A stretch of 25,291 bases of DNA from a virus. This document shows, piece by piece, positions 5,203-25,291 of this stretch (position 1 is its first letter; the number at the start of each line of letters is the position of its first letter). The stretch is taken from positions 1 to 25,291 of IMG/VR virus record IMGVR_UViG_3300025082_002101. The stretch is one strand, 5' to 3'. The notes under the pieces were generated by a model that worked only from the letters and a program-made list of their open reading frames with translations, was not told the origin of the DNA and did no database searches. Made by a program: the position numbers and the translations under genes.

Positions 5203-5205
5203 TAA

Positions 5206-5742
5206 TTATATCACCTCGATCATAGGTAACGTACCACGCCATAGGGCTAAACTAAACTCCTGGAAACCAAGTTCGTCTTGAACAAACCGCATTGTTATAT
5301 CGTGCTTGTAATCTGCTCTTATGTCTGCAAGATTAGGAACATTGACAACAAACGTTATAACACCAGTGGCGTCTACGATAGAATAATCACCGGGATCTGT
5401 TTGTATAACTTCGTCTACACGAATGATCTCACTAGCGGCAACAATGGGCGGGTCGTGAACAGTATAAATCTTTGTACCACCATCACCAGTACCAACATAT
5501 TGATAAGTAACGTTCCACCTAAAGGTAAACGATTCAAAAGAACCTTTACGGGCATCATAGAAGTCAAATATTTCTAATGCTTTTTGGTCTGTCCACGGAT
5601 CTAACCTAAGATTAAAAATTCTCCTTTTGCTAGTCCAAACAGCTCTCCGTTGTTCTTTACCACTCTCCATAGGAGTAATAAGAGTTTTCCATCTGTGTCT
5701 ACGTTCAGACAAGTAACTTTCTAATATATCAAGTGTTGCCAT
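5206..5742 (-). CDS. Distal/minor tail protein (DUF2460-like, lambda gpM position)
   Basis: 178 residues. The N-terminal half has the pattern ESGKEQRRAVWTSKRRIFNL followed by IFDFYDARKGSFESFTF. This resembles DUF2460-type proteins, in which a charged start leads to an R-rich strand and then a 'FF-ARRG-F-F' element. Family knowledge: these form the distal ring joining tail tube and hub. The C-terminal half is beta-rich (IKIYTVHDPPIV-like strands, then VTGVITFVV). The gene follows the tape measure gene by 18 bases and precedes the gpL-like gene, the usual position. Gene order strengthens the call; the sequence signal alone is moderate. Confidence 0.7.
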   Translation of the reverse strand: MATLDILESYLSERRHRWKTLITPMESGKEQRRAVWTSKRRIFNLRLDPWTDQKALEIFDFYDARKGSFESFTFRWNVTYQYVGTGDGGTKIYTVHDPPIVAASEIIRVDEVIQTDPGDYSIVDATGVITFVVNVPNLADIRADYKHDITMRFVQDELGFQEFSLALWRGTLPMIEVI

Positions 5743-8700: not shown

Positions 8701-8787
8701 ATTAAAAGTCTGAAGGTTCTTCCCAAACTTTTTAAGCTGGACAGTACCATCGTCTTTGACTGTTAGTGTTAGTGTTATATCCGCCAT
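5761..8787 (-). CDS. Tail tape measure protein
   Basis: 1008 residues, the longest complete gene in the tail module. Family knowledge: the tape measure fills the tail tube, sets its length and is ejected ahead of DNA. Seen: an N-terminal ITLTLTVKDDGTVQLKKFG segment typical of siphovirus tape measures, long amphipathic helices throughout, a hydrophobic stretch at about 88-128 (LTPIIGGLMS onward) that could enter the host membrane, and a C-terminal motif with SFHTGTP, then DDDEAIIPLPDGRSVPV, a common end for this family. At about 0.15 nm per residue a tail near 150 nm is predicted (inference). The ATG directly follows the TAA of the frameshift product, and AAGG lies just upstream. Confidence 0.93.
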   Translation of the reverse strand: MADITLTLTVKDDGTVQLKKFGKNLQTFNRQAKKDTKQTTDEMTSGWQKMRNKMDKLLGTRFASMLSNSFSAFGKVAKQLFGEMKTGLKVLTPIIGGLMSAFKALIAVTLAWQVVVITTAALTTTGLVKVGKGILTLTEQFEKYRIVLKGALKDTTAVNKILKFAQDFAITAPTTFRAIVDAVKGFAIIPQLKPMLLDMDNLNKTLRKLMNTALGLMSLAPEQGMQGALFALREALSGQFRSLQFRFNLMPEVVAGAIGKTVQELKRSPKVFLEAISTFIEQNIGAATLEAMGKQLSIQLGNITDAFEKAAILIGRSGFYQAVVEQVIRVVEALSKWVDSADFVDNQSVRISNAFSSMVDSITMSAQSLISVLIESFFPTLDKLFGGDKLLTVSEAFTRLVEMFAEQLDKLPVWVDKNSKSILGFLGDAKVVLEAISKLTVGIATAGVKVGAFLVKISKPLIVRKRAETEDVVSSLRELKDPEVGFEETAKSLLKAAHASGFWSAEMEKGLVFLKEVLELNRKLSNQSSGVEGLGKKVTAVLENLRGQTEDAQQSEKEWTAVFLNQHRIRLSLFNQALGMVKKLELRFLTTFDPEKGAVKKFEQQTSTIQTAWNDYVRQREDDIAAGGDKFTKAQKEALEAELVEQTRLWKIGFGKFTRMVELLTEQARLKARRAQVKFVQEVIGGLGGEGGSTRLQLEAFEQLKMSQRKQLVSERKILEFRLKSLGMTAEKAREVSMLRIHLMGVEFTKQNEFLQLQIQAQNNFLAATELGYQNYFSKLKNQYQLVTEFAETSFGRIAQTFEDVVVEGVVLGTRKIGDIFRQTILDIEISFLKMLTKIILKKAMVGLFGFDPIQAGINALSGAITPTAAAGIGTNIAQGITQFAVPGGIQLPQGFVNVGSAGASFESFDTGLNHPSFHTGTPRTSKGLVNVDDDEAIIPLPDGRSVPVSLGGSQQGGDIVIMNVIDAEDITAAGLSTNGNQRVVKNIINSDTLRRGSTRRIRKSFDD

Positions 8788-9689: not shown

Positions 9690-10874
9690 TTATACAAACG
9701 TAATGCTTAGCTCATCATTCAAGCTGGAACTTGCCGGACCATCAAAGTCCAACGTTCTCCGTATCTCTTCATCACCGGCATCGGCAGGAGCACGGAACTC
9801 CAACTGTGGTAGACTTGCCTGTACAATATCTCCAGCCACGTCACCTATTGGCACTATCAACGCACCGGACGTTCTCTGTAAAGCAAACCGGTCAAACTTC
9901 ACATCGTTCTGACGGAAAAGGATTTCCACCGTTCCAGCTACATCCCTAAAGCTAGGAGTTAGATGTGTTGCCGGAAACAGGTCTCCACTTTTCTCATCAT
10001 CAATGTATTTAACATTGTTAGTCAACGTCATCCGGAAAGAGGTTATCAAGTAGTTAGCCGCTCCGGAACCTTCATCCAACGTTGCTATACCGGGTTTACC
10101 ATGTAATGGATCACCAAGTTCTGTCTGTGTTGGAACCCATGGAGCTACAACAGCTTCGTCCGCCTGTGTAGTAGTAAGGTTAGGACTGATGGTTAAAACG
10201 TTGGTGGTGTAGTTTACTCCAGTTACCTGGAATCCAGCTCCACCGTTATCGTCCGACCCAATAGTGATATAAATACCACCAGACTCGCCGGCAAGATTAT
10301 ACTTTCTAGCATCAGCAACCGTAATAGTTCCAAGAGCAACGGAGGCACCGGCATGTTCACCATTTAGCTCATCCGTACCGGCGTAGAGCTGTTTAATAAA
10401 CTGCCCACTCCAGTTACACAAACCAGGTCCACCACCAGGAATATTCATCTCCAAAACATTCACGGTAGCACCTACACCGATATATAAGGTATGGTCTTTA
10501 AGGAACCACAAAGAGAAACTCTCTATATTGTTAGCCAGCGTATAAACAACACTCACGCCAGCGTTTGTGGTTTCTGTTCCGAGAGCTACCTTAAACAGGT
10601 TTGCCGCTTCCGGTTTAGTTCCCAAAGCACCAGACGGTTTAATATATGTAGGAAAGTTCCAAGCTCCTGCCTCATACCGTCCTGGAATAGGTGTTAATCT
10701 ACTACGTCCTGCCCTAATCTGCTCGTCCGGGATAACCTCTCTTGCCTGAACTATAGAACCGGGACCACTAAGCATCACCGTATCATCAGAAACCGCCTTA
10801 GCTGGTGTTCCTTTAGTTGCTTCAACAGCAATAAATACCTTTGTATTTCTCTTAATTGCAATCACATTTGCCAT
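9690..10874 (-). CDS. Major tail (tube) protein
   Basis: 394 residues, beta-rich, directly upstream of the chaperones. The N-terminus (IAIKRNTKVFIAVEATKGTPA) and the following segment with EVIPDEQIRAGRSRLTPIPGRYEAG are typical of phage tail tube subunits: a 'kV-iAvE-T-GT' strand, then a loop describing an asserted ring contact. The C-terminal part (RMTLTNNVKYIDDEKSGDLFP, then VAGTVEILFRQNDVKFDR) matches the second half of such folds. The middle (about 170-250, rich in Gly, Ala and Thr) may be a surface-exposed insertion domain (inference). GAGGAG lies about 11 bases before the ATG at 10874. Base composition looks slightly richer in GC than the surrounding genes, as expected for a highly expressed structural protein. 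Confidence 0.82.
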   Translation of the reverse strand: MANVIAIKRNTKVFIAVEATKGTPAKAVSDDTVMLSGPGSIVQAREVIPDEQIRAGRSRLTPIPGRYEAGAWNFPTYIKPSGALGTKPEAANLFKVALGTETTNAGVSVVYTLANNIESFSLWFLKDHTLYIGVGATVNVLEMNIPGGGPGLCNWSGQFIKQLYAGTDELNGEHAGASVALGTITVADARKYNLAGESGGIYITIGSDDNGGAGFQVTGVNYTTNVLTISPNLTTTQADEAVVAPWVPTQTELGDPLHGKPGIATLDEGSGAANYLITSFRMTLTNNVKYIDDEKSGDLFPATHLTPSFRDVAGTVEILFRQNDVKFDRFALQRTSGALIVPIGDVAGDIVQASLPQLEFRAPADAGDEEIRRTLDFDGPASSSLNDELSITFV

Positions 10875-11695: not shown

Positions 11696-11707
11696 TTTAT
11701 TTTCTCC

Positions 11708-12166: not shown

Positions 12167-12695
12167 GTTTTGCTCTAACTCTTTTCTGTACACCTCTTGC
12201 AAATTTTAACGTAGCTTCCAATGTCTCTGGAAACGTATTACCTATCATCTTATATGGCTTAGTGCCTGGGTGATAAATAGGTTTATTTTTTGTGCTAACA
12301 AACATTAGAATTCTTCCATTTCTATCGAGCTTCGGATTCTTTGGTACTTTACCATGAAAATCACTTAACGCTACTGGAAACACAAGTAACCACGGTGGCT
12401 TCTTTGCTCTAATAGGATGAGCACGAGTACCCTCTTCCAAATAATGAATAACATCTTCTGGATCATAAGTGTTAAAGATAACCCCTTTTGAAATTAACCC
12501 TGTCTTCCTATCATACTCTATAAGCAATTTCCATTTTTCTCTAATACTACCTGTACCTGGTGTTCTTTGTTTTACTTTTACTAATGCTTCATTCAGTAAT
12601 CTTTCAAGTCCAACGTTCATAAACGTTTTAAACTTGATTCTACCTAATTTCTTTTCTGCTTTCTTAGCATCAACTTCTATTTCAAAACCTAACAT
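12150..12695 (-). CDS. HK97 gp10-like neck/tail completion protein
   Basis: 181 residues from the ATG at 12695. A GTG 9 bases further upstream is possible, but the ATG overlaps the previous stop as TAATG, a junction used elsewhere in this module. The pattern HYLEEGTRAHPIRAKKPPWL, then LVFPV and a late KPIYHPGTKPYKMIGNTF, is the hallmark of the HK97 gp10 family: 'EfGT--hP-Rp', then 'HPGT-p--f---a'. The C-terminus is a helix rich in Arg and Lys. Family knowledge: these proteins belong to the neck or tail completion complex. The position between a connector-like gene and a terminator-like gene agrees. Confidence 0.75.
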   Translation of the reverse strand: MLGFEIEVDAKKAEKKLGRIKFKTFMNVGLERLLNEALVKVKQRTPGTGSIREKWKLLIEYDRKTGLISKGVIFNTYDPEDVIHYLEEGTRAHPIRAKKPPWLLVFPVALSDFHGKVPKNPKLDRNGRILMFVSTKNKPIYHPGTKPYKMIGNTFPETLEATLKFARGVQKRVRAKHAARK

Positions 12696-13426
12696 TACAA
12701 CCACAACTTACTAAGCAACAAACATTCTTTCTTAAACTCTTCTAATTTCTTTTCGGACGTTTGTTTTAACGCTAAAGCTCCACCATAATCAATAGTTCCT
12801 CCAGAACGTGGTATACCGGAAAGCTTGTTCCTTCTGGACTCTATGGAATCTAAGGATTCGTGTTCTCCCCAAAGCATTATAGCTCTCTTAAACTCGTCCA
12901 TCTCAGCAATGCTTGTCCAATCCCATTGCTCACCGGCCATAAACCAAGCTTGGTCGCCACCGGATGAAGGTGCTGGTGATAATCTCACCTGATTGGTAGG
13001 TAATTCCAAAACCATGGTCACCGGTGTTAGTCTATCCATCTGCTTGAGTTTAGCTGTAGCCACGTTAAACAACGATGGATTATTAAAAACAGACAAGCCC
13101 CAAATATCACTCTCTCCTAAACCAGGTAGACGGTAATAGTATATCTGGTCTGCAAAGGTAGTAGCGAAGAATCCTGTTCTCGGCCAGTACACCTCAAGCA
13201 ACGTTCTAACTGTAGCTGGTACAGAATAGGTGGCTTGGTCTTTCACAGTAGTTATAAACCGTAAAGTTCTTACAGGTATAAACCGGTATAACTCCAACAG
13301 AGCGTTATCAAGATAACTACCCATTTGTGCAGTAGTTATCTCGTAAGAATTCTTAGTTGTGTCCCTGTTGGGCCTACCTAAATTAGCCCACAGTTCCTCT
13401 ATTAACGTTGCTCTTAGTAACGTCAA
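12695..13426 (-). CDS. Putative head-tail connector/adaptor protein
   Basis: 243 residues from a TTG start at 13426. The codon two positions upstream is the stop of the preceding gene, and a GAGG-containing purine-rich Shine-Dalgarno (GGAGAAAGAGGAATAAGAG) leads into the TTG, so a non-ATG start is credible. The N-terminal third is helical (MGSYLDNALLELYRFIPV) followed by a beta element ATYSVPATVRTLLEVYWP and a C-terminal Lys/Glu-rich helix. No motif gives a definite family. The position first among the neck genes and the helix-strand-helix plan suggest an adaptor attached to the portal (inference). No portal gene is in the window to confirm this. Confidence 0.45.
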   Translation of the reverse strand: MTLLRATLIEELWANLGRPNRDTTKNSYEITTAQMGSYLDNALLELYRFIPVRTLRFITTVKDQATYSVPATVRTLLEVYWPRTGFFATTFADQIYYYRLPGLGESDIWGLSVFNNPSLFNVATAKLKQMDRLTPVTMVLELPTNQVRLSPAPSSGGDQAWFMAGEQWDWTSIAEMDEFKRAIMLWGEHESLDSIESRRNKLSGIPRSGGTIDYGGALALKQTSEKKLEEFKKECLLLSKLWL

Positions 13427-13429
13427 CTC

Positions 13430-13687: not shown

Positions 13688-13723
13688 TCCCTTTCCACCT
13701 ACATAGTTTCACTTTTTTGTATA

Positions 13724-13748
13724 TAATATCTACTAATATCTACAATCA
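13724..13748 (-). promoter_or_regulatory. Intergenic motif with tandem 10-bp repeat, candidate promoter/operator
   Basis: The 71-bp gap 13688-13758 holds a perfect tandem repeat of GTAGATATTA (minus strand, 13743-13724). The 23 bases at 13748-13726 match 20 of 23 bases of a site at 20595-20573 in the other long gap; the shared core is GATATTAGTA. The site lies 38 bases before the GTG of the neck block. A weak sigma70-like pair can be drawn (TTGTAG, 16 bases, TATACA). I see no terminator hairpin in this gap. Confidence 0.5.
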
Positions 13749-13758
13749 CATTACACTA

Positions 13759-14862
13759 TCATTTTAGACTTTTTATCTTATTTCTTATAACATCTACCAC
13801 CCTTTGAGCTGCACAACCATCCCACAATTTATCTAGTGGTGGTCTCATTTTTCCTCTCGCTGGATGTATTCTTAAAAATTTCTTTATATAATAAATTATG
13901 TTGTTAAGATTTTTGTAATCCGTACCATGTAAATAGTTTGTTCCAAAATTAACTGTTGCTGGTCGCTCTGTGTTATTTCTTAACGTTATACACGGTACTC
14001 CCAAAACGGTTGATTCCTCCTGTATACCACCACTATCAGTTATCACGACTACAGCACTTTTTATAAAACTAATGAAGCTTAAATATCCCATTGGTTCACA
14101 AAGCTCTATGTTCACCGGCATTATTATATTGTTATCTTTTATAAACTTTTTTGTTCTTGGATGAGCTGGAAATATAATTTTGTAACAGGATCTACCAAGT
14201 TCCTCCATCAGGTTTTTAAAGTTACTAACCTGATTTACGTTGGATGGTCTATGTATGGTAAGTAAACAGTATCTTTCGTTTGGTATTCTTACTGAGTCTA
14301 TAAATGTTATACTTGAGCAAATTCTTAAACTATCTGCTACCGTGTGGCCTGTTAAAAATATATCTTTACCTCTCCTGCCTTCCATTATTAAATTATTAAC
14401 TGCTCTTGGTTCTGTTGCTAACAACACTTGTGAACAAGCATCCCCAACAATTCTATTCCATTCTTCGGGCATCTCTTTATCGTTACTACGTAGTCCAGCC
14501 TCAAAGTGTATGAGTGGTATTCTAGGTAACATCTTTACCGTTGCTAAAGCTGTTGCCGGTACACAGTTTGTATCTCCTGACATTAGCACCATCTTTGGTC
14601 TATCTTTTAGTAATACCTTTTCTATACCTTGCATCATTTGTCCCACTTGGTAAGCCGGGGAACCAGAACCAACTCCTAAATTATAATCTGGTGTAGGTAG
14701 TGGTAATTGCTTAAAAAATACATCATTCATTGTCTCATCGTAGTGTTGTCCGGCATGTATAATGTTGAAACTTACACCTTGGTTTTTTAGCTCCAAAAAT
14801 ATAGGTAACAGTTTTATCCATGTTGGTCTTGCTCCAGCCACTATTACAAGTTCAGGTCTCAT
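13759..14862 (-). CDS. wecB: UDP-N-acetylglucosamine 2-epimerase (non-hydrolysing)
   Basis: 367 residues, full length for the family. The reaction interconverts UDP-GlcNAc and UDP-ManNAc in the cytoplasm. Seen: MSGDTN (Asp97), HFEAGLRSND (Glu121), EMPEEWNR (Glu133/134), TIHRPSN (His204), DSGGIQEES (276-284) and NNTERPATV (296-304). These correspond to the E. coli WecB residues Asp95, Glu117, Glu131 and His213 and to the nucleotide-binding loops. The first loop, normally GTRPE-IK, is GARPTWIK here (10-17), so the Glu is Thr and the next residue Trp; substrate preference may differ. It is the last gene of the sugar cassette and overlaps the FkbM-like gene by 11 bases. AAAGAG lies upstream of the ATG. 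Confidence 0.92.
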   Translation of the reverse strand: MRPELVIVAGARPTWIKLLPIFLELKNQGVSFNIIHAGQHYDETMNDVFFKQLPLPTPDYNLGVGSGSPAYQVGQMMQGIEKVLLKDRPKMVLMSGDTNCVPATALATVKMLPRIPLIHFEAGLRSNDKEMPEEWNRIVGDACSQVLLATEPRAVNNLIMEGRRGKDIFLTGHTVADSLRICSSITFIDSVRIPNERYCLLTIHRPSNVNQVSNFKNLMEELGRSCYKIIFPAHPRTKKFIKDNNIIMPVNIELCEPMGYLSFISFIKSAVVVITDSGGIQEESTVLGVPCITLRNNTERPATVNFGTNYLHGTDYKNLNNIIYYIKKFLRIHPARGKMRPPLDKLWDGCAAQRVVDVIRNKIKSLK

Positions 14863-15481
14863 GGTTTATCTCTTTCATTAATCTCTTCATGCCTTCTAAA
14901 AAAGTAATTTTTGGAGCTACGGTTCTGTGTTCTACATAATGAATATTATCTAATTCCATTCCTTTACATACGCTCTTATAAGCTTGCGGACAGTTCAACC
15001 ACTGCGGATGATGATAAAATCTAACCAAGATACTAAGATTAATATCTTTACATTCTTCACAATGTAAAATATCTTCTATAATATCAAACTCACCGCCGAC
15101 ACAATTTAGATGTAAAATTATCTTTTCATACTTATCTTTTAAAGGAAGTAGTAAATCGGTGGTTGATATTGTGTTAATAGAAAAAACTTTTTTCTGTTTT
15201 GAAGTTATCATTTCAGGTATTTCATTATGAAAAGTAGTTCCATCTGTATATTCTTTACCATCTATATCTCTTACGTATATTTTCTTTACTCCTGTTTTGT
15301 TAGATACCGCCCTATACCACATAGATATTTTTTTATTGTCACCAAACTTTTTTAACAAAAACTGGTAATTCTTCGGGTTTGGTTCTATCAACAAAAAATC
15401 CATGTTGCTCCATATCTTCATAGCACTAGAAAACTCACTGCCACGGCAGGTTCCTACATCTATAAATAATATTTTGTTCAT
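14852..15481 (-). CDS. FkbM-family methyltransferase
   Basis: 209 residues. Seen: an N-terminal SAM-binding loop IDVGTCRGSE (7-16), the acidic LIEPNP (31-36) typical of FkbM proteins, then SINTISTTDLL (101-111) and HLNCVGGEFDIIEDIL (124-139). The last motif normally reads 'lKiDvEG-E--vL'; here the Asp and Glu are changed, so it is a divergent member. Family knowledge: FkbM enzymes transfer methyl groups to hydroxyls of sugars and other small molecules. Its start overlaps the epimerase stop as ATGA, and its stop overlaps the wecB start, so the three are probably co-translated. Methylation of a sugar made in this cassette is inference. Confidence 0.8.
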   Translation of the reverse strand: MNKILFIDVGTCRGSEFSSAMKIWSNMDFLLIEPNPKNYQFLLKKFGDNKKISMWYRAVSNKTGVKKIYVRDIDGKEYTDGTTFHNEIPEMITSKQKKVFSINTISTTDLLLPLKDKYEKIILHLNCVGGEFDIIEDILHCEECKDINLSILVRFYHHPQWLNCPQAYKSVCKGMELDNIHYVEHRTVAPKITFLEGMKRLMKEINHET

Positions 15482-16533
15482 TTTCCAAGCCCTTTTAGAA
15501 AGTTTAATACATTCTCTAACTCTGTTCTACCACCATAAAATATATCTTCTGCTTGTGGTACATCGTGTGCCCAGGCAGGATCGTTAGCTTTTAATCTTTC
15601 GTTACAATAGTCTATTGTTTGCTTAATAACGTCTGGTGTTTCTTCTTGGTTATCTTCCTTCATATCTTTTAAACCAGATATAAGATCAAAATTAGGTTCC
15701 CATTTTATAAGTGTTTTTGCTCTCCTGTTGTCTCCTAAACTTTCTTTTATCTCACCTGGTCTGGTCGGTAGATATGTTATTGTTCCTCTAAAACATTCTG
15801 CTAGTTCAAGTATGCTATAATTCTTACCAGCACAAAGGTTTATTGGTATACCGTGTTTTACATCCCTTAAAGTTGCCTGGATAATACCACTGACTATATC
15901 CTTTACATAAGTAAAGTCTCTTCTCTGCTCACCGTCACCAACTACTGTTAAATGTTTCCCTTCACGCTCCTGCCGTTGGAATATACCTATAACGGAAGCA
16001 TAGTCACCCTCTGTTGCCTGATTAGGTCCAAACACGTTAAAGAAACGCAAACAGACGGTAGACAAGTTATATAAAGATGAGAACACTTGGCAATAAAGTT
16101 CTCCACAATATTTCTGTACACCGTATGGATTTAAAGCGGAATGTGGTGTGTCTTCTGATACCGGTAAATCAATAGCGTTACCATACACGGAAGCAGAACT
16201 GGCATATATAACTTTTTTCACCTTGGCTTCTTTTGACGACATTAAAACCTTTACCGTGTTACTAAGGTTGTTCCTGTGTGCAGACACCGGGTCTTTTATT
16301 GCTTTTACTATCCTCGGCACCGCCGCTAAATGGTAGACATAATCTATACCCTTAAAAAACCTATCACAGGAATCTTGTAAATCCACCTGGTGAAATTCTA
16401 TTTTTGGGTTTATGTTTTCTTTTTTACCTGTGCTGAGGTTGTCTAATCCCACAACTTCCCAACCAAGATCAATTAAAGCATTAGCCAAGTTAGAACCAAT
16501 AAAACCAGCGTTACCAGTTACTAAGACTCGCAT
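15478..16533 (-). CDS. NAD-dependent sugar epimerase/dehydratase (SDR, GalE/WbpP-like)
   Basis: 351 residues from the ATG at 16533; AAGAGG precedes it by 7 bases, better than the GTG six codons upstream. Seen: Rossmann loop GNAGFIGS (7-14), DNLSTG after strand 2, HLAAVPR, a catalytic SSASVYG (112-118) and YGVQK (Tyr137 and Lys141), then RFFNVFGP and a GDGEQRRDFTYVKDIV segment. This is a complete extended SDR of nucleotide-sugar 4-epimerase or dehydratase type; the exact sugar cannot be read from sequence. The C-terminus extends about 45 residues past the usual end (ending YGGRTELENVLNFLKGLGK), an unusual addition that may be a small interaction segment. It overlaps the WbqC-like gene by 13 bases. 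Confidence 0.88.
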   Translation of the reverse strand: MRVLVTGNAGFIGSNLANALIDLGWEVVGLDNLSTGKKENINPKIEFHQVDLQDSCDRFFKGIDYVYHLAAVPRIVKAIKDPVSAHRNNLSNTVKVLMSSKEAKVKKVIYASSASVYGNAIDLPVSEDTPHSALNPYGVQKYCGELYCQVFSSLYNLSTVCLRFFNVFGPNQATEGDYASVIGIFQRQEREGKHLTVVGDGEQRRDFTYVKDIVSGIIQATLRDVKHGIPINLCAGKNYSILELAECFRGTITYLPTRPGEIKESLGDNRRAKTLIKWEPNFDLISGLKDMKEDNQEETPDVIKQTIDYCNERLKANDPAWAHDVPQAEDIFYGGRTELENVLNFLKGLGK

Positions 16534-17216
16534 GTTATTTCCTCTTCCCACTTCTTAAATCCTTCTTTACCACAATTAAATATAAAATCTATTATTGATA
16601 ATCCTGGTATGAAGTCACCGTGTAACTGATTGTATTTGTTATTTGCAAACAGCAAATACATTAGTTCTATGTTGTTTTCTTTAAACTTATCTTCTTCCAA
16701 ATAATTTCTACCGCTGTTACCTGAGATATAAGTGGTAGCAGATATCCACTTTAAAATATTAACTAATAACTCCGTTGAACCGCCTTGTAAGTCTGGTATA
16801 CTGGAAGCTTTTATCATGTGTGTTTTTATTTCTAGGTATTCACATATAGCGTTTAATATACAAATATTAAAGCTTGATAATCTCTCCCACTCTTTGCTAT
16901 TATAAATAATCTCAAGTATTGGAAAGAAATCATCAAAGTATTCACACCTGCTGTAATTCTGTATTATTGATTTTAAATGTTTTTTTCTCCAACTGGTGTT
17001 TGAATTTATTATTGTTTTTTCTATTGCTTGTGTTCCTTTTAAAACCGGTACTGTTAGCCATTGTTTGCCCTGATGGGTTTTTATTTCTACTCTGTTTTGA
17101 TAACCGTTTTTTGAGAACTGTACTGTGTCTAATAGAACCAATATATTTGATCTTACCATTTTACAAAAGAAGCCCAACCATGGGAGAAACACCGGTTGGT
17201 GTATTGTAACTATCAT
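16521..17216 (-). CDS. WbqC-family protein
   Basis: 231 residues. The N-terminus (MIVTIHQPVFLPWLGFFCKM, then LLDTVQFSKNGYQNRVEI and KQWLTVPVLKG) is the diagnostic pattern of the WbqC family: 'HQP-f-PwlGfF-K', 'lD-vqf-k---qnR', 'WltvPv'. Members occur in O-antigen and other surface-sugar clusters. Their biochemical role is not firmly established; transfer of a small group to an amino-sugar is often proposed. The C-terminal third is helical and less conserved. It starts with an ATGA overlap on the deacetylase-like gene, which points to joint production with that enzyme and the epimerase. Confidence 0.88.
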   Translation of the reverse strand: MIVTIHQPVFLPWLGFFCKMVRSNILVLLDTVQFSKNGYQNRVEIKTHQGKQWLTVPVLKGTQAIEKTIINSNTSWRKKHLKSIIQNYSRCEYFDDFFPILEIIYNSKEWERLSSFNICILNAICEYLEIKTHMIKASSIPDLQGGSTELLVNILKWISATTYISGNSGRNYLEEDKFKENNIELMYLLFANNKYNQLHGDFIPGLSIIDFIFNCGKEGFKKWEEEITCES

Positions 17217-17917
17217 TGCGGATATGTCCTCCCTAAGTAGTAGTGTTTTTCATACCAGAGATAAGGATGAGTTAGCATCTGTATTTTGTTATGGTTGTTT
17301 AGGTGTTCACAAATACAACCTTCTTGCCAGATACCATTAGAATCTGATAAGTATATAAACTCTGAACCACCAAAAAACTCTGTAGAATAAACATGTTTTT
17401 CAAATATTCCGTGTTGGTCATACCTCATAAAATCCATTTCAAAGTCGCCCAATAAACTGTCTTTTTTTGCCCTGTTATCACCATGTGGTGCAACAGATAC
17501 AACATTTATATTAAAAAACTCGTCCATCATTTTCTTATCTTCTCTTAATGTTTGCACATACTCTCTATAATCACGTTTTATCCCCATTACATCCATAAAA
17601 AATAAACCCTCTGAATGTAAACCAATTTCGTGTCCTAATTCTATTATTTGATCAACAATATTAGTTGTATTAAACCCAAAAGCGTTATACTCGTTGGCGT
17701 GTAATCTGAGGAAGAAGGTTGAACTAACACCTACTTCTTTTTCTATCTTGGCAATTTCCAAAGCTCTTAAAGGATTAAACTCAATATCATGCCTTAATAT
17801 TAAAACTTTCCTCATATCCTTCTTATAATACCTAAATGGAACAAGTTCATAACCAGCCGCTTGAAACATATATAATGTCTTTCTATAATGATCAAAGGTA
17901 AAGTCTTTACAGCTCAT
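17213..17917 (-). CDS. Polysaccharide-deacetylase-like protein (NodB superfamily, RHDxD type)
   Basis: 234 residues. Seen: LRHDIEFNPLRALEIAKIEKE (41-61), GVSSTFFLRLHANEYNAFG, the metal-site motif GHEIGLHSE (95-103), APHGDNRAKKD (143-153) and a final MLTHPYLWY (214-222). These are the motifs of a NodB-like subfamily common in surface-polysaccharide clusters, in which the first motif usually reads RHDVD. Here the second acidic residue is Glu46. Family knowledge: such enzymes remove N- or O-acetyl groups from sugars with a divalent metal. There is no signal peptide, so the protein should act in the cytoplasm. ATGA overlaps on both sides indicate a shared transcript. A role on amino-sugar intermediates fits the WbqC neighbour (inference). 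Confidence 0.82.
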   Translation of the reverse strand: MSCKDFTFDHYRKTLYMFQAAGYELVPFRYYKKDMRKVLILRHDIEFNPLRALEIAKIEKEVGVSSTFFLRLHANEYNAFGFNTTNIVDQIIELGHEIGLHSEGLFFMDVMGIKRDYREYVQTLREDKKMMDEFFNINVVSVAPHGDNRAKKDSLLGDFEMDFMRYDQHGIFEKHVYSTEFFGGSEFIYLSDSNGIWQEGCICEHLNNHNKIQMLTHPYLWYEKHYYLGRTYPQ

Positions 17918-18780
17918 GTACTTAACACCCTCTCCAGCTCCTTACACCAATATTTATTCAAAGCCTTCTCATTGAAGTTTTCTTTTATATGTAACCATCT
18001 TTTTTCTGTTTCATCCTGAGTTGTATATTTAATAAAACTATCAACAGCACCAGGTATATTTTTTATTTTATCAACACTAAATATATTATCTTCATCCATG
18101 TTTAGGTAAATACACCACCTACCATAAGCCAATGCCTGGAAGGTGCTTCTACCAAAGTCCAATTGCTTTGATACCCTTACAAAACCATGTGCTTCAGGTA
18201 GATCGTTCCTAAAGTCAACTTTACCTCTCCATTTAACGTGCTGAAAACCACCATCAAACTTATAAAGTATAGTTCTAAAAGAAGATATGAGATGTATTTC
18301 AACATCGTACATATTTATAAATGCTTTTACTATTCTCCTCTGCATTTCTTCGTCCATGTAAGGATCATTATTATCTATCCAATACCAAAGTATCCTCCTG
18401 TTGTTTGGTATAGGTGGACACGTCTTAGGAATTACTAAAGCGTTCGGTCTATACATACACTTACACGGTATTTTTGGTAACCTATGTTTTAAGAGATATG
18501 CCGCTTGGTTTGAATTAGTCCATATCTCCGCCGGTGGATTATTGTTTATTTTAATTCTTAAATCTTCTCTATCTAATATTTTTCTGGTAGTACCACCACA
18601 GAGATAAACTATACTCTTTTTGTTATCCCTCACATCTATCCTATTATGTAGAACAACAGCGTCAAACTTGTTAGCATTAGAATCCTTTGTGAATTCTATA
18701 TCATGAGTAGGACGTAGTATTTGTCCTATTCGGTTTGCTCCCATGGTTGTTCTACCTGTTTTTACTATAGATACCTTCAT
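17914..18780 (-). CDS. Glycosyltransferase-like protein (GT-B type)
   Basis: About 288 residues from the ATG at 18780, which overlaps the previous stop (ATGA); a TTG six codons upstream is less likely. The N-terminal half has alternating strands with DAVVLHNRID and SIVYLCGGTTRK, and the middle has PNNRRILWYWIDNNDPYMDEE. The C-terminal half carries SKQLDFGRSTFQALAYGRWCIYL, similar to the nucleotide-binding region of GT-B enzymes in which an 'E-a-a-G-p-i' stretch holds the donor. The canonical Glu is not obvious, so the enzyme may be divergent or the class misassigned. The protein is shorter than usual two-domain GT-B enzymes. Context strongly favours a sugar-transfer role, but the acceptor is unknown. 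Confidence 0.6.
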   Translation of the reverse strand: MKVSIVKTGRTTMGANRIGQILRPTHDIEFTKDSNANKFDAVVLHNRIDVRDNKKSIVYLCGGTTRKILDREDLRIKINNNPPAEIWTNSNQAAYLLKHRLPKIPCKCMYRPNALVIPKTCPPIPNNRRILWYWIDNNDPYMDEEMQRRIVKAFINMYDVEIHLISSFRTILYKFDGGFQHVKWRGKVDFRNDLPEAHGFVRVSKQLDFGRSTFQALAYGRWCIYLNMDEDNIFSVDKIKNIPGAVDSFIKYTTQDETEKRWLHIKENFNEKALNKYWCKELERVLST

Positions 18781-19370
18781 TTTATACCGCTGATCCAAAC
18801 CTCCTTGTAAGCTTTACAATCAACTACTTCTGCCCATAAATTTATAAATCCTGCCGACAAAAACATTTCATGCATATACTTTCTTCCTGGTATAGCGTGA
18901 ACATGTTTGCTCCTTATTCCTTCTATTGGTACAATCAAATCTAACCTACCACCGGGTTTTAACACTCTGTAGAATTCCTTCAACGTTTCTAATGGCTTTA
19001 TCAAGTGTTCAAAGGTGTGTCGGTGATAAACCACGTCAAAGAAATCAAAACCATAAGGTAAATTATGTAGATCACAACACTTCGTTACATGTCCAGCTTC
19101 TTCCGCAACCCTTACCTTAGCTGGTTGGAAGTCTGCACCAAAAGGTATGTAACCATATTTCCTCATTACGTCCATAGCAAACCCGTCACCACAACCGGCA
19201 TCGAGAACCTTACAACCTCTTATCCAATTCTTTTTAAACTTCTTAACAGCATCTCTACACCGTTGCATATATACTGGATATTTTCTAGTCCAAATACAAC
19301 TACCCATCTGACCAGCTTTATAAGCCTTGTATGTCTTGAATTTCTTTACCACGATCTTTGGTTTCTTCAT
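18777..19370 (-). CDS. Class I SAM-dependent methyltransferase
   Basis: 197 residues. Motif I is VLDAGCGDGFA (55-65), motif II is at GADFQPAKV (78-86), CCDLHNLPYGFDFFDVVYHRHTFEHL (98-123) includes the post-II region, and LKPGGRLDLIVP (137-148) is motif III. This is the Methyltransf_11 layout; the N-terminal 50 residues are Lys-rich with a WTRKYPVYMQR segment. Family knowledge: such small enzymes methylate sugars, lipids or proteins. The FEHL motif is typical of this clade and gives no substrate. It overlaps its neighbours on both sides by 4 bases. It is the second methyltransferase in the cassette, from a different family than the FkbM-like one. Confidence 0.88.
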   Translation of the reverse strand: MKKPKIVVKKFKTYKAYKAGQMGSCIWTRKYPVYMQRCRDAVKKFKKNWIRGCKVLDAGCGDGFAMDVMRKYGYIPFGADFQPAKVRVAEEAGHVTKCCDLHNLPYGFDFFDVVYHRHTFEHLIKPLETLKEFYRVLKPGGRLDLIVPIEGIRSKHVHAIPGRKYMHEMFLSAGFINLWAEVVDCKAYKEVWISGIK

Positions 19371-19975
19371 TTTCTTATTTTTCCTCCTTTTGGTACGTCA
19401 TATCCATAATCATTTGCTAAACATATAATGTTCAACGTTAAGTTATAATCCTCTTTTAGTAAGTCTTCCCACGTCCAATTGCTGTGTCCTCTGCTACCGC
19501 TCTTCGGTATACCAGGATACTCAACACCATCTTTACCTATAAGTTTGCTTATTGTTTCCCAATTTTCTTCTACCTGCTCCAACTGATATCTAAAATGTGC
19601 TCTACCTTCAGCAAGTTTATTCCAGTAGAACCAATACTTCATACACCGTAGTAATAGTGAATCCTTCATTTTAACTGGGATATGTTTACAAACAAAATCC
19701 CAGGAGAACTGTTGTGCTGTTTGGAATAAACTAATACAATTAAGCGGATATCTTGTCTGGTGTAAAACGATATCATCATCTCTGTATTTTGTTCTTATTA
19801 CTCTTTTATATTTTTCTGGATCTAGTGGACTTCCATATCTAGGATCAGCCGCATAATACCAACTAGATACACCGTCTTTTCCCCATCTCTCGTGGCCAAT
19901 ACTTAATCCAAGAGATGTTAATAATTTAGAAGCTGACCTGGTGCCGCTTCGTCCACAACCGGTTATAATAATCAT
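19367..19975 (-). CDS. Sulfotransferase-like protein, copy 1 of a tandem pair
   Basis: 202 residues. The P-loop-like GCGRSGT at 6-12 matches the 5'-phosphosulfate-binding loop of PAPS sulfotransferases, and RYPLNCIS (75-82) matches the 3'-phosphate motif R-x-P-(x)-S. Family knowledge: such enzymes move sulfate from PAPS to hydroxyl or amino groups of sugars, lipids or peptides. Shared with the next gene: GHE(R/K)W, W(Y/E)YAADPR, KYWFYWNKLA and a late W(E/K)DL element, so the two are paralogues. There is no signal peptide or membrane segment, so the protein is cytoplasmic. It is about 60 residues shorter than typical sulfotransferases. A nucleotide-kinase-like P-loop role is a weaker alternative. 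Confidence 0.78.
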   Translation of the reverse strand: MIIITGCGRSGTRSASKLLTSLGLSIGHERWGKDGVSSWYYAADPRYGSPLDPEKYKRVIRTKYRDDDIVLHQTRYPLNCISLFQTAQQFSWDFVCKHIPVKMKDSLLLRCMKYWFYWNKLAEGRAHFRYQLEQVEENWETISKLIGKDGVEYPGIPKSGSRGHSNWTWEDLLKEDYNLTLNIICLANDYGYDVPKGGKIRK

Positions 19976-20553
19976 ATCTCGTACCCGTATCTCCTACCGA
20001 GCTTTATTATCTCTTTCATTAATGATTTATCTGTTCGTCTTAAATCTTTCCATGTTAATCTTGTTTCATAAGTTTTCTTTGAAAGTATAGGTACTTCACT
20101 TAAAAATTTATACTTTTTAATTTTAAAAACCTTCATTATTTCAGTCCAGTTTTTCTTTATTTGTTCTATCTGGAAAGTAAAAACAGATCTACCTGCCGCT
20201 AATTTATTCCAGTAAAACCAGTACTTCATTGCTTTTAAAGTTAAATCGTCGTCGTGATTGACCGGTATATGTTTTTCAATATATTGCCAGGAAATAGGAG
20301 AAAAACATCTCACAGAATTTATACAGTTAAGTGGCTTCCTAACAATGTGGATAACTATTTTATCCTCTGTTAAAGCTCTTATTGGTCTAGCTTTTTTAGG
20401 ACTAGCTATCCTTGGATCTGCTGCGTATTCCCACGACACGACACCGTGTTTACGCCACTTCTCATGCCCTATTTCTAGCCCTGCTTTTGTTCTTAATAGG
20501 TGTGTAACAGTGTTGGTTCCACTACGTCCACAACCGGTTATTATTCTAAGCAT
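19972..20553 (-). CDS. Sulfotransferase-like protein, copy 2 of a tandem pair
   Basis: 193 residues, paralogous to the gene that follows it and overlapping it by 4 bases (ATGA). The 5' loop GCGRSGT is at 7-13 and the 3' element RKPLNCINS at 72-80. Shared blocks: SWEYAADPR, HIPV, KAMKYWFYWNKLAAGRSVF and LTWKDLRR. The sequences between the blocks have diverged well beyond recent duplication, so the copies probably modify different positions or acceptors (inference). It is the first gene after the 246-bp gap holding the shared 23-bp motif (19 bases upstream of the ATG), so it may be first in its transcript. A GGA lies about 8 bases before the ATG; the Shine-Dalgarno is weak. Confidence 0.78.
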   Translation of the reverse strand: MLRIITGCGRSGTNTVTHLLRTKAGLEIGHEKWRKHGVVSWEYAADPRIASPKKARPIRALTEDKIVIHIVRKPLNCINSVRCFSPISWQYIEKHIPVNHDDDLTLKAMKYWFYWNKLAAGRSVFTFQIEQIKKNWTEIMKVFKIKKYKFLSEVPILSKKTYETRLTWKDLRRTDKSLMKEIIKLGRRYGYEI

Positions 20554-20572
20554 CTTATTTATCCAACCTTAC

Positions 20573-20595
20573 ATATTTACTAATATCCACATTCA
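20573..20595 (-). promoter_or_regulatory. Second copy of the 23-bp intergenic motif, candidate promoter/operator
   Basis: On the minus strand this site carries GATATTAGTA with flanks that match 20 of 23 bases of the 13748-13726 site. It ends 19 bases before the ATG of the first sulfotransferase-like gene. If it is a promoter, transcription would start within or just after it. A stand-alone TATAAT hexamer lies further upstream (20627-20622) without a convincing -35. No hairpin-plus-U terminator is visible in 20554-20650, which otherwise appears to be non-coding. Confidence 0.5.
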
Positions 20596-20650
20596 TTAAC
20601 TTATGCCACAAATAATGAAAAATTATATATATTACAGTATTTATTATTCC

Positions 20651-20800
20651 TCAAAAACAAGCATTACTTATTGCTCCAAGTTTAAATAAACACATCTCTA
20701 TTTGGAAATAAAAGAAAATGCTCATAGTACTTATAACAACTATTCTATAGATTATACTTTTAAAACAAAGATAACCAAGTGGTGATTCCATTTTTTCCAT
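20651..20800 (-). CDS. Small hydrophobic protein, 49 residues (possible membrane peptide)
   Basis: ATG at 20800 overlaps the TAA of the upstream glycosyltransferase gene as TAATG, the same junction used by three tail genes, and AAGGAG lies 11 bases before it (compare 12 bases before the tail-tip gene). The frame runs 49 codons to TGA at 20651. Residues about 15-34 (SIIYRIVVISTMSIFFYFQI) are hydrophobic with one Arg and could form a single membrane helix; three Cys are spread along it. The Shine-Dalgarno also lies inside the coding end of the previous gene, so it may be chance. No homology can be seen from sequence alone. Confidence 0.4.
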   Translation of the reverse strand: MEKMESPLGYLCFKSIIYRIVVISTMSIFFYFQIEMCLFKLGAISNACF

Positions 20801-21954
20801 TAGTTGTGAAACTCCTTTATTATCTTCCTGAAAAATCTATCCAATTTCCAAATGTAGTTTTCCATCACAATACTTTTTGAATACTTGTTATTTGCTAAAT
20901 CCTTTTCACCTTTATACTTCTTAATATCAAGCTTAACTCTATTTAGATTCTTACACTTAATCCCTATTCCATATCTGTTTGCTAACCTTATACAACCTTT
21001 GAAATTTATTATCACCGGTATAACACCAGCCGCTATATACTCCCAGTACTTATTAGGAGTTGTGTTATTGAGAAAATCGTAAGAACCAGGGTTTGTATCT
21101 CTAAAATTAAATCCTACTAAACCATAATGGAACTGCGTCATCTCTTTTAGTAATTTTAGATATGGCACCTGGTAGTGAAAGTGGAACAGCTTATTGTTTT
21201 TTCTCTCCTCCAGGTAGTCACCATAAGCCGCCTTATACCTGTTGCCACCATAAGCGTGGACATGTATCCCTTGCGCCATCAACTCCTTAAACAACGGCAA
21301 ATAATACCTATATTGATATGTTGGTGAATCGTTACTGTTCACCATTCCGCCTTCGTAAACAAAATGTATTCCGTTCTTTCTTTTTGGTAGTGGGTCTTTA
21401 GGTATCCAATCCTGAGGAACGTAACCATGTAAAGCCATCCACGGTGCTTTTATGTTGTATTTCATATTAGCAAATTTCATTACTTCTTCTGCTATTACTA
21501 TTATCCCTTGAGCAGTTTCAAAACCAGCTTTCTCAGCTTTTACGTCACCACTTTCACAACTCAAGTGGGGTCTACGGTAAGAAGACATATCATGAACAGA
21601 AAAAACTATTGGTAAACTGTCTCCAACCACTTCTCTCATCAACGTGTAAGCACTATTAGGTTCCTGGTGCGCTATTATAATGTCCGGTTTAACAGCTCTA
21701 ACATACTTTTTAAGTATCCTTATTTTTTCTCCTCTACTAGATGTTCTCTTTAGATCACAAACGTGTTTAAAACACCCTTTTACAAGGTCTCTATGAGCGG
21801 AAAAGCAGTTATCGTAGGCAATAGTGGACTCATAACCAAACATAGTCTTTAGAGCCTGTGTTTCCTTTGCCATTCTAATGCTAAAACATTTACGATATCT
21901 CATTACTCTTATTGGTTTTTTTGGTTTCTTATTTGAGAAATAGTTATCAAACAT
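20800..21954 (-). CDS. Glycosyltransferase (GT-B), paralogue of the last domain of the giant glycosyltransferase
   Basis: 384 residues. Seen: DIIIAHQEPNSAY (91-103), SVHDMSSYRRP (119-129), a HFVYEGGM strand (197-204), QYRYYLPLF then GIHVHAYGG (229-237), and NKYWEYIAAGVIPVI (301-315), a typical GT-B C-terminal donor-site layout. Each block recurs in the last 370 residues of the gene immediately upstream, as HQEPN, VHDMTSHRLP, IVYMGG, GINVHVYP, NRFWDFLGAGLPVI and the end motif (M)(D/E)N-WKLD, so the two arose by duplication. The start ATG overlaps the stop of that gene by 8 bases. Donor and acceptor sugars are unknown. The enzyme has no membrane segment and should be cytoplasmic. Confidence 0.8.
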   Translation of the reverse strand: MFDNYFSNKKPKKPIRVMRYRKCFSIRMAKETQALKTMFGYESTIAYDNCFSAHRDLVKGCFKHVCDLKRTSSRGEKIRILKKYVRAVKPDIIIAHQEPNSAYTLMREVVGDSLPIVFSVHDMSSYRRPHLSCESGDVKAEKAGFETAQGIIVIAEEVMKFANMKYNIKAPWMALHGYVPQDWIPKDPLPKRKNGIHFVYEGGMVNSNDSPTYQYRYYLPLFKELMAQGIHVHAYGGNRYKAAYGDYLEERKNNKLFHFHYQVPYLKLLKEMTQFHYGLVGFNFRDTNPGSYDFLNNTTPNKYWEYIAAGVIPVIINFKGCIRLANRYGIGIKCKNLNRVKLDIKKYKGEKDLANNKYSKSIVMENYIWKLDRFFRKIIKEFHN

Positions 21955-24900
21955 GATAATCCTCCATCACAAACCGGATCAACTTGTCTAGCTTCCAAGC
22001 GAAGTTATCCATCATAAATAGCTTTATCTTTTCATCTGGTATAGTTTTATTCTTACCAAAGTTGTTTATTTTTTCTTTTAACTTTTCTAAATCATCACAT
22101 TGGAAACCGAAACCATAATCTTCCGCTATCTCGCCTATAGTTGGATTATTATGAACTATAACAGGTAAACCAGCACCTAAGAAATCCCAAAACCTGTTCG
22201 GCATAGCTGTTCTAACAAAGTCTATTGTACTTTTACTGGAACTTTCTATGTTCCACGTGCAGATACCAAAATGATACTGTGTAATTGTTTCCATCAACTC
22301 ATCAAAAGGTAGTGGCGTATAAATATGTAATCTACTATTCTTCCTTGTTTCAGCACCGTATTCGACGTCCTTTATTAGGTTAAAACTGTTTGGATACACA
22401 TGAACGTTTATACCCTGTTTCGTTATCTCCTGGAATTGGGGTAGGTTATACCGGTATCTTATATCCGATCTCCAGTTCTGTGTTGACACACCACCCATAT
22501 AAACGATATGTGTTCCATCCTGTTTCTTTGGTAATTTGTTCTTAGGTAGCATGTTTAAAGACGGTGTACTGGGAATTGTTATCCACGGTGCTGTAATGTC
22601 GTATCTTTGTTTTGCCCAGGAAACGGTACTTGGAGTCACAACGATAATGCCATGTGATTCCTCAAAACCTACCTTTTCACCAAACAACTCTTTCTGAGAT
22701 ATCTGGTCCAATGGTAATCTATGGCTTGTCATATCGTGTACTTCAAATAACCACGGTATTTTTAAATCGTCACAAACCGTTTTTACAATAGGAACATACC
22801 AGTTTGGCTCCTGGTGAACTATTACTACATCCGGTTCTACCCTGTTTATTATTTCCAACAAAGATTCTTTAAAGACATCGGCACTTTCTCCCCAGTCAAT
22901 AATAAACACACCATCCATGTAACGCTTCGTTGGTGCCACCTCTTGCTTTAGTACCTTTTTACACATCAAATATGTTTTGTAACCATAGGTGTTGCGTAAA
23001 CCGTCTGAACTCTTACAAATCCTTATTTTCTGGTATCTTCTAACCCTTAATATAACCTTATGTTTTTTGAAACTTCTTTTTCTCATCCTTCTTATCTTAG
23101 CATCCGTTAAGGCTTTTCTATGTCCGTCTGCTTGTTCCTGTAAGTTCATTGAGCTACGTCCTTTATGAATTACATACAACGGTTTATCAATATATAAACA
23201 GCGGGTTACCTCCTCTAGTTTTAAAGCAAGATCAAAATCAACGGCTCCACGTAATTTAGGATTAAAACCATCCGTCTTATTATAAGATTCCCTTGACCAG
23301 ACTTTAAATTGGGAACTTATCATCTTCCGCTCTGAGTAGTTATTAAACGTGGTTGTTATCTGTTTGCTCTGCGTCCCAACAACACCGTCCTGGTTAATAT
23401 AATTGGTGTAGAAAAAACCTACAAATGGATTCTTATAATATACCTTTAAAACGTGGTGTACTGCTTTTGGTAAAAGCTCGTCGTCACTATCCAAACAACC
23501 TATTAGATCTGATGTCATATAATCCATAACTTTTCTGGACGTGAAGCCAATACCTTTGTTTTCTTTTGTTCTAATTAACCTTACGTTTTTTATACCTACC
23601 TCATTTTTTAGACGTTTTAAAGCCCGTTTAGCTATGGCAACGGTGTTATCCTCGGAACCATCGTCAATTAGTAAAACCTCGTCAGGTAAGCGTGTTTGTT
23701 TGGCTATACTATCTATAGCCCTCTCTACTGTTTTCTCCCTGTTCCAAGTGGTTATATAAATACCTATCGTTACGTCTTTAGCTTCCACACCTAATATACT
23801 TGAACCACATAAAAACCTTTTCCACCTTTTAAGGAATTTCTTTTTACTTTTTGCACCAACCTTCTGAGGATCAAAGTCTAACAACGTTTTATCCCTTAAC
23901 GTTGAATGAGCTATATGTTTTATATTTGAACCATGTAATACACCTATATTTAATCTTTCTCTTTTTGCTCTAAAACTAAAGTCGCTGTCCTCGTAATAAG
24001 CTGGTGAAAATATCTCATCAAAACCAGCAAGCTTGTTAAAGGTTTCTTTCTTCACCACCAAACCACCACCACCAACGTAATCGTATATATCAAAATCTTT
24101 CACGAACTTTACCGGTGTTGGGTTACCGTCCTCGTGCATTGTCCAATGTTCTATGCCAAGTAAATCAAAGCTATTTATCTTTGCTAAATATTTCTGTAGT
24201 GTGTTTTTACTAATTATCTGGTCGTTGTCTAAAAACAAAAGATAATCGCCGGTAGCGGCTTCGGCACCCTGGTTCCTTGCTTTAGCTACACCTTTGTTTA
24301 ATCCGTTACCTATAATCTTAACGTTACGGGTGCTCAACCATTTAATTGTACTGTCGCTGGAATGGTTATCAACAACTATGATTTCAACTTCCATACCACA
24401 GTCTTTATTGTTTTCTAAAGCCTGTATACACTTTTTGGTAACAGTTAATTGGTTCCTAGTGAGTACAATTATACTAAGTTTTTCGTTACCTATTTCAGTA
24501 GGAATAGAGGTTATAATGTCTTTTATGAAAACTTGTGTAAATCCGTCAGGTAATGATTTATCCCCACCCTGGACAAACCTAGTGTCTATTATTTCTCCCG
24601 GCGGAACCTTTATGTTTTCTCCTCTACCGCCCTGAAATATCTGGTCTATCTTTGTATCGTTACGGAAAAACATCCTCCTAACCTCCCTATTTATTGTTGT
24701 TACCGGTATAGAATTCATACACTTAGTTTGCTTGCTTCTGAGCATTCTTTCGTGGCATTCCGGTGAATAGTTGAACCAGCACGGTGAACATTTACATTTC
24801 CTTGCGTTTACAAACCTTATATAACTTAGGTAATCCTTAAAACGGTCACCTTTACGGCTTGGTCCCATTAAACCTATCGTTGGTTTCTGGAGTAATAAAG

Positions 24901-25291
24901 CTAGGTGTAATACTCCACTATCGTAAGCAACCACCGTATCAGCAGCAGCCACCGCACCTATCAACTGTCTTAGATCTAATAAACCACAGGTATTCATTAT
25001 CCCTTTATTTAAGATACCGTAGATACCAGACGTATCACCTACTAAAACCACCTGTGTATCTTCTGAAAGTTTATCTATCAAAGATTTTAACTTACCAAAC
25101 GGTAGTACCCTGTAATTACTTGTAGAACCAGCTTGGATAACAACTATCTTTTTATCCCGTGCTGATGTTTTAATATAATGTGCTACTTCTTGTACTTTTT
25201 GGTTTTTTTGTATCCAAACCTTTACGGCATAAAAGTAATCCTGAATGTCTTGTTTTGTTACTTCTACGTTAAGCTCTTTTCCCCACTCTTT
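21947..25291 (-). CDS. Giant four-domain glycosyltransferase (GT9-GT2-GT2-GT-B), N-terminus beyond window
   Basis: At least 1114 residues; the frame is open to the window edge, so the start is outside. Numbering from the first visible codon: the GT9-like domain (1 to about 205) shows VVIQAGSTSNYRVLPFGKL, YDSGVLHLALLLQKPTIGLMGP and a Cys-rich CKCSPCW...C end, as in heptosyltransferases. GT2 domain A (about 271-480) has SIIVLTRN, VVDNHSSD, the DxD-like LDNDQ (354-358), a GGGG loop and YYEDSDFSFR. GT2 domain B (about 505-735) has IGIYITTWNREKTV, LIDDGSEDNT, the acidic CLDSDDE (599-605) and GAVDFDLALK. The last part (about 745-1114) is a GT-B domain like the next gene. Four sugar-transfer modules on one chain could build a defined oligosaccharide in order (inference). 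A TTG at 25081 is only an internal codon. Confidence 0.85.
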   Translation of the reverse strand, partial: KEWGKELNVEVTKQDIQDYFYAVKVWIQKNQKVQEVAHYIKTSARDKKIVVIQAGSTSNYRVLPFGKLKSLIDKLSEDTQVVLVGDTSGIYGILNKGIMNTCGLLDLRQLIGAVAAADTVVAYDSGVLHLALLLQKPTIGLMGPSRKGDRFKDYLSYIRFVNARKCKCSPCWFNYSPECHERMLRSKQTKCMNSIPVTTINREVRRMFFRNDTKIDQIFQGGRGENIKVPPGEIIDTRFVQGGDKSLPDGFTQVFIKDIITSIPTEIGNEKLSIIVLTRNQLTVTKKCIQALENNKDCGMEVEIIVVDNHSSDSTIKWLSTRNVKIIGNGLNKGVAKARNQGAEAATGDYLLFLDNDQIISKNTLQKYLAKINSFDLLGIEHWTMHEDGNPTPVKFVKDFDIYDYVGGGGLVVKKETFNKLAGFDEIFSPAYYEDSDFSFRAKRERLNIGVLHGSNIKHIAHSTLRDKTLLDFDPQKVGAKSKKKFLKRWKRFLCGSSILGVEAKDVTIGIYITTWNREKTVERAIDSIAKQTRLPDEVLLIDDGSEDNTVAIAKRALKRLKNEVGIKNVRLIRTKENKGIGFTSRKVMDYMTSDLIGCLDSDDELLPKAVHHVLKVYYKNPFVGFFYTNYINQDGVVGTQSKQITTTFNNYSERKMISSQFKVWSRESYNKTDGFNPKLRGAVDFDLALKLEEVTRCLYIDKPLYVIHKGRSSMNLQEQADGHRKALTDAKIRRMRKRSFKKHKVILRVRRYQKIRICKSSDGLRNTYGYKTYLMCKKVLKQEVAPTKRYMDGVFIIDWGESADVFKESLLEIINRVEPDVVIVHQEPNWYVPIVKTVCDDLKIPWLFEVHDMTSHRLPLDQISQKELFGEKVGFEESHGIIVVTPSTVSWAKQRYDITAPWITIPSTPSLNMLPKNKLPKKQDGTHIVYMGGVSTQNWRSDIRYRYNLPQFQEITKQGINVHVYPNSFNLIKDVEYGAETRKNSRLHIYTPLPFDELMETITQYHFGICTWNIESSSKSTIDFVRTAMPNRFWDFLGAGLPVIVHNNPTIGEIAEDYGFGFQCDDLEKLKEKINNFGKNKTIPDEKIKLFMMDNFAWKLDKLIRFVMEDYHV

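Follow-up and report, generated by a model that had tools for sequence, protein, structure and literature searches.

A glycan cassette continuous with the neck and tail genes of an uncultivated tailed phage, a candidate locus for virion glycosylation

Introduction

Virion glycosylation of mycobacteriophages has been published (Freeman 2023, as cited in PMC12619734 and also in PMC11256854), and PMC12619734 cites capsid and tail-tube subunits that bear glycans at their C-termini. Mycobacteriophage Corndog (cluster O) carries an O-methyltransferase and three glycosyltransferases encoded between the portal and protease genes; a role in modifying the capsid was proposed by its authors (PMC4351075). 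Chlorovirus genomes specify most, if not all, of the machinery that glycosylates the capsid in the cytoplasm; in PBCV-1 this involves virus-made nucleotide sugars, a conserved core and variable glycosyltransferases (PMC5408694). In marine pelagimyophages, a hypervariable region at the tail fibres holds glycosyltransferases together with structural genes, and these enzymes were interpreted as modifying host LPS (PMC7029224). Streptococcal SRR adhesins show stepwise cytoplasmic extension of a protein O-glycan, in which Gtf3 elongates the glycan on a protein, Fap1 (PMC5207161).

The locus analyzed here lies in IMG/VR record IMGVR_UViG_3300025082_002101, a 25,291-bp fragment of an uncultivated tailed phage; the whole record is referred to as the window. 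As in Corndog, methyltransferase and glycosyltransferase genes are found inside a structural operon. However, the Corndog genes occupy a different interval and encode unrelated proteins, and the available part of the Corndog report describes no nucleotide-sugar synthesis, sulfotransferase or deacetylase, whereas the window cassette encodes the first and probably the other two. The likeness to PBCV-1 would lie in virus-encoded cytoplasmic glycosylation of virion proteins, in nucleotide sugars made by the virus and in core transferases that are conserved beside others that vary, but PBCV-1 is a eukaryotic virus with different enzymes, and a location in a capsid-tail operon is not known for its genes. 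The pelagimyophage genes differ in lying beside tail fibres, and neither a sulfotransferase nor an epimerase is mentioned in the available text. Gtf3 is the closest PDB fold for one of the window proteins, at only 13% identity, and no Gtf1/Gtf2 initiator was recognized in the window. The cassette is thus an expanded form of known phage virion-gene glycosylation loci, to which it adds nucleotide-sugar synthesis, probable sulfation and deacetylation and, in relatives, a recurrent head-neck site. With the Corndog precedent (PMC4351075) and the published mycobacteriophage glycans, the description 'possibly undescribed system', given in a sequence-only reading of this DNA, is too strong.

Results

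Nearly all credible genes of the window lie on the minus strand, where 11 sugar-related ORFs (25291 to 13759) are followed in the order of transcription by neck and tail genes (13687 to 3; Table 1). ORF and family assignments confirm the claim of the sequence-only reading that at least 11 overlapping sugar-related genes precede the neck and tail genes on the same strand: nine of the ten cassette junctions overlap, by 4-31 bp. The window edge at 25291 falls inside the first cassette gene, so that 11 genes is a lower bound. The sole non-overlapping junction is a 246-bp gap (20554-20799), the only sizeable one in the cassette and possibly a regulatory or lost-gene region.

The cassette runs into the neck and tail genes across a 71-bp gap with no compositional break. 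GC matches on both sides, the codon usage of the cassette cannot be told apart from that of the tail genes (RSCU r = 0.959, compared with 0.966 +/- 0.011 for random splits), and no terminator-like sites were found in 11500-25291, where seven were expected. Since codon usage is indistinguishable and terminators are absent, nothing points to an assembly junction near 13700, the event that the sequence-only reading had named against itself, and such a junction appears unlikely. A chimeric assembly, in which phage tail genes had been fused to a glycan locus of bacterial origin, would fit a fragmentary record with a 71-bp gap at the boundary, but strand, codon usage and GC are alike on both sides and the same arrangement recurs in independent contigs, which leaves it a very small chance. 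The claim that the cassette is phage-borne is likewise upheld by codon usage uniform with that of the tail genes and by equivalent cassettes in related phage contigs.

Table 1 Features of the window
Feature	Position	Strand	Basis
g01, multidomain glycosyltransferase, at least 1114 aa	21947..25291	-	Pfam: GT9 (5' open), GT2, GT2, GT4/Gtf3-like C-terminal domain
g02, GT-B (GT4/Gtf3-like) glycosyltransferase	20800..21954	-	AlphaFold model and Foldseek
g03, sulfotransferase-like	19972..20553	-	Pfam Sulfotransfer_3 E 0.0024, below cut-off; 5'-PSB motif TGCGRSGT
g04, sulfotransferase-like, tandem paralogue of g03	19367..19975	-	Pfam Sulfotransfer_4 E 0.028, below cut-off
g05, class I SAM methyltransferase (Methyltransf_11)	18777..19370	-	Pfam 6.6e-18
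g06, glycosyltransferase-like C-terminal by eye only	17914..18798	-	No significant family match
g07, polysaccharide-deacetylase-like	17213..17917	-	RHDIE motif; weak: NCBIfam PdaB 0.0022, Pfam 0.11
g08, WbqC family protein	16521..17216	-	Pfam 3.9e-72
g09, NAD-dependent nucleotide-sugar 4-epimerase/dehydratase	15478..16551	-	Pfam 3.9e-59; YxxxK by sequence; PDB relatives WbpP, WbgU, GalE
g10, FkbM-like methyltransferase	14852..15481	-	TIGR01444 3.3e-7, below cut-off; Pfam 0.013; FIDVGT motif
g11, non-hydrolysing UDP-GlcNAc 2-epimerase (WecB)	13759..14862	-	TIGR00236 equivalog; PDB 4neq 4e-78
Candidate head-tail adaptor, cassette/tail boundary	12695..13426	-	Pfam SU10_adaptor E 0.033, weak; position
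Tail protein, candidate major tail/tube protein	9690..10874	-	PHROG 290, 1.2e-14
Tape measure protein	5761..8787	-	PHROG 167, 1.5e-6
Distal tail module: DUF2460, BR0599, NlpC/P60, tail fibre J	3..5742	-	Pfam and PHROGs

Profile comparisons give solid assignments for the epimerase, WecB, GT9/GT2, WbqC and Methyltransf_11 proteins, and weak ones for the FkbM-like methyltransferase, the deacetylase and both sulfotransferases, whose profiles fall below curated cut-offs and are accompanied by motifs. WecB (g11) reached 279 bits with TIGR00236, for which the curated cut-off is 210 (Pfam 6.5e-88). In g01, Glycos_transf_2 was matched twice at E 4.5e-49, by domains that resemble GtrB (PHROGs), and GT9 at 1.4e-12; matches of GT9/GT2 and WecB in phage records were of low identity, many in unannotated and some in bacterial-named records. 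The C-terminal domain of g01 shares 32% identity over 379 aa with g02, a paralogue of that domain. The only cassette ORF with no significant match in family-profile searches was g06. The g03 and g04 products are 50% identical to each other and the 5'-PSB P-loop of PAPS-dependent sulfotransferases is present, while whole-domain profiles are below cut-off and the structure model of g03 has a pLDDT of 40. No relative of this tandem pair (19367-20553) appeared in scans of viral contigs and cellular genomes, a search of 50,697 phage records gave no match to g03, and a sulfotransferase-motif pattern scan returned two contigs without useful context. A meganuclease profile match of the pair was judged spurious.

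The AlphaFold model of g02 (pLDDT 84) has a clear GT-B fold. Its top Foldseek match was Gtf3 (3qkw; E 6e-11, TM 0.58-0.67), with other GT-B enzymes close behind, and fold matches in BFVD include a DNA alpha-GT. Phage glycosyltransferases often act on DNA, and together with the latter match this speaks for enzymes that would protect phage DNA from restriction by giving it glycosylated hypermodified bases. Nevertheless, the combination of hydroxymethyl-base synthesis with a base-specific glycosyltransferase, typical of DNA glucosylation, was not found: seven contigs, one of 97 kb and any of them possibly incomplete, contained no match to the thymidylate synthase family (base hydroxymethylase). 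Moreover, the cassettes adjoin structural rather than replication genes, and we know of no sulfo- or deacetyl functions on DNA glycans. DNA as the target is therefore very improbable.

No relatives were revealed when viral contigs were scanned for single proteins, namely the adaptor, WecB, DUF2460 and the two sulfotransferases. Alignment of the two GT4-like domains (g01 C-terminal and g02), and then of their relatives, led to six contigs, and a second glycosyltransferase family from those contigs (PF13524, CgeB-like) led to about a dozen more; gene order was read from profile labelling. The repeated order was terminase, portal, scaffold, decoration, capsid and fibre-like genes, followed by the cassette and then by adaptor, head closure, tail completion, a g02-type glycosyltransferase, tail tube, tape measure, NlpC and tail J. 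The search for the cassette in related phages, suggested at the outset, thus succeeded: it lies between the MCP and adaptor genes in all seven contigs holding both (G001, G002, G003, L025, L028, L034 and L038), a count that tells its location and not its frequency, as the contigs were fetched via glycosyltransferases. In G003, terminase, portal, scaffold, an Ig-type major tail protein and the tape measure were confirmed by PHROGs. The proposed position between head and tail modules accordingly holds for distant relatives, with terminase and portal upstream, whereas the head genes of the window phage itself are only expected, beyond 25291.

These seven cassettes comprise from three to about 13 genes, the first of which are conserved and the remainder variable: a GT9-like 'FELGW' gene, a CgeB-like glycosyltransferase and GT9 are accompanied by variable sugar genes. 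The smallest (L034 and L028) consist of three transferase genes. The G002 cassette includes radical-SAM, aminotransferase, hexapeptide/methyltransferase and several glycosyltransferase genes, and the largest, in G001, encodes an APS kinase, a sulfotransferase, an NDP-hexose dehydratase, a DegT aminotransferase, GT8 and methyltransferases. The capsid-adaptor interval is a cassette hotspot in these phages, with a small conserved transferase core and an exchangeable periphery, as expected of a virion coat under diversifying selection. Regarding the methylated, sulfated and deacetylated glycan first proposed, the Methyltransf_11 assignment is solid, and a sulfotransferase domain and APS kinase are clear in relatives (G001), but the sulfotransferase and deacetylase profiles of the window are weak. 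The APS kinase gene of G001 (L011, 14618-15055) adjoins a FELGW gene and lies upstream of a sulfotransferase gene, which suggests phage-made PAPS in G001. Many homing-endonuclease-like genes (KLTYDYVKSQFEKEGYTLLSKEY family) are scattered among the structural genes of G001, G002, G003 and L008.

Profile comparison showed the GT4-like family, NlpC and tail J to be common to the window and this group, and the tape measure C-terminus weakly so; no homology was recognizable for the adaptor, head closure and tail-tube proteins of the window to those of the related group (G001-G003 and others). Because homology of these neck and tube proteins could not be detected, the synteny of the window holds by analogy, in addition to the shared glycosyltransferase, NlpC and J, and the window phage is, on these profiles, a distant or parallel case. 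Neither its adaptor nor the GT4-like family, queried with a relative's protein, had a match among the 50,697 phage records, and the searches made revealed no isolate relatives of these phages.

When homing-endonuclease and HTH inserts are ignored, a g02-type glycosyltransferase gene lies immediately upstream of the tail-tube gene in five of six contigs, either directly (G003, L007 and L010) or separated by only a homing-endonuclease or HTH gene (L008 and G002), with G001 as the exception. This pairing suggests that the tube protein may be a glycan acceptor. In G002 (37098-39743; L014), the g02-type glycosyltransferase and tail-tube genes are positioned between the scaffold and decoration/capsid genes, that is, in the head module.

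WbaP, WecA, Wzx (PF13440) and Wzy gave no match above cut-off in the window and six related contigs, while control genomes responded; the expectation that flippase, polymerase and initiating lipid-linked transferase are missing was thus correct for these contigs. The window, incomplete upstream, does not present the initiating transferase (PF02397/PF00953), flippase and polymerase of a Wzx/Wzy-type locus. Gtr serotype conversion involves a GtrA flippase, GtrB and a polytopic GtrC, and of these only GtrB-like GT2 domains were found. Among about 50 cassette proteins there is no polytopic one; each has at most one hydrophobic segment. The absence of export and initiation families and of polytopic proteins implies an acceptor that is accessible on the cytoplasmic side, which could be a protein of the virion, a lipid of the inner leaflet or DNA.

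Discussion

The glycosyltransferases are phage-encoded and clustered with virion genes, as in mycobacteriophage-type virion glycosylation, and a co-directional, overlapping operon that lacks terminators continues into the tail genes. We consider it fairly probable that the cassette is a phage-encoded locus for cytoplasmic glycosylation of one or more virion proteins. A virion acceptor is favored over a host lipid by the position in the structural operon, the head-neck conservation and the pairing of glycosyltransferase and tail-tube genes. The best fold match of g02, an enzyme that elongates a protein glycan, also counts for virion glycosylation, as do the Corndog precedent, the reported mycobacteriophage glycans and the sulfation and sugar genes of the G001 cassette; against it stand the low identity of that fold match and the fact that no obvious protein O- or N-initiating transferase was recognized.

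Under the competing explanation, the cassette acts late in infection on glycans of the host surface (LPS core, O-chain or capsule), altering them so that superinfection is blocked or progeny no longer re-adsorb to debris. GT9, GT2 (GtrB-like by PHROGs), WecB, WbqC and deacetylase genes are typical of envelope polysaccharide loci, a GT9 (heptosyltransferase-type) domain could, with no flippase, act at the inner membrane on the core of lipopolysaccharide, and similar pelagimyophage genes were read as host-surface modification by their authors (PMC7029224). However, no cassette in the contigs searched contained a GtrA-type flippase, Wzx, Wzy, an initiating transferase or a polytopic protein, the cassette lies within the virion operon in many phages, and there is no sign of lysogeny, a scan of about 85,000 cellular genomes with the capsid alignment having revealed no relative of the MCP (close matches only). 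Host-surface remodelling is thus rather unlikely, although it deserves more weight than either alternative discussed above.

If the virion is the acceptor, the cassette would be expressed late, and nucleotide sugars would be supplied by WecB, producing UDP-ManNAc, and by the 4-epimerase/dehydratase, producing further donors. Cytoplasmic GT9, GT2 and GT4/Gtf3-like transferases would then build a short glycan directly on at least one virion protein, the likeliest acceptors being tail-tube, capsid or fibre subunits, and the methyltransferases, deacetylase and sulfotransferases may subsequently diversify it. A broader formulation, in which uncultivated tailed phages possess a dedicated, rapidly exchanged head-neck locus whose products synthesize nucleotide sugars as well as a sulfated/methylated glycan and link this glycan to proteins of the virion, as a counterpart of chlorovirus self-glycosylation, is put forward tentatively, at somewhat less than even chance.

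The particles of these viruses are probably coated with sugars that the viruses make themselves and that differ between strains. With the virion as acceptor, many uncultivated phages would carry such self-made coats, which would influence how particles adsorb, how they are masked from recognition and how stable they are, and phage genomes would offer new enzymes for assembling and sulfating glycans. The head-neck hotspot provides a simple genomic signature to seek in other phages.

Two minor observations concern other parts of these genomes. A 374-bp stretch of the window (8788-9161), between the tape measure gene and a gene for a chaperone-like protein of tail assembly, contains a small TTG-start ORF (8788-9030), possibly a programmed-frameshift chaperone extension. 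Genes for CgeB-like glycosyltransferases also occur in other contexts in several contigs (L027, L029-L033, L037 and L043), and L027, L029 and L033 represent a second phage group in which aminotransferase-radical SAM-GT8 cassettes (with GT_CgeB or FkbM) are located away from labelled structural genes.
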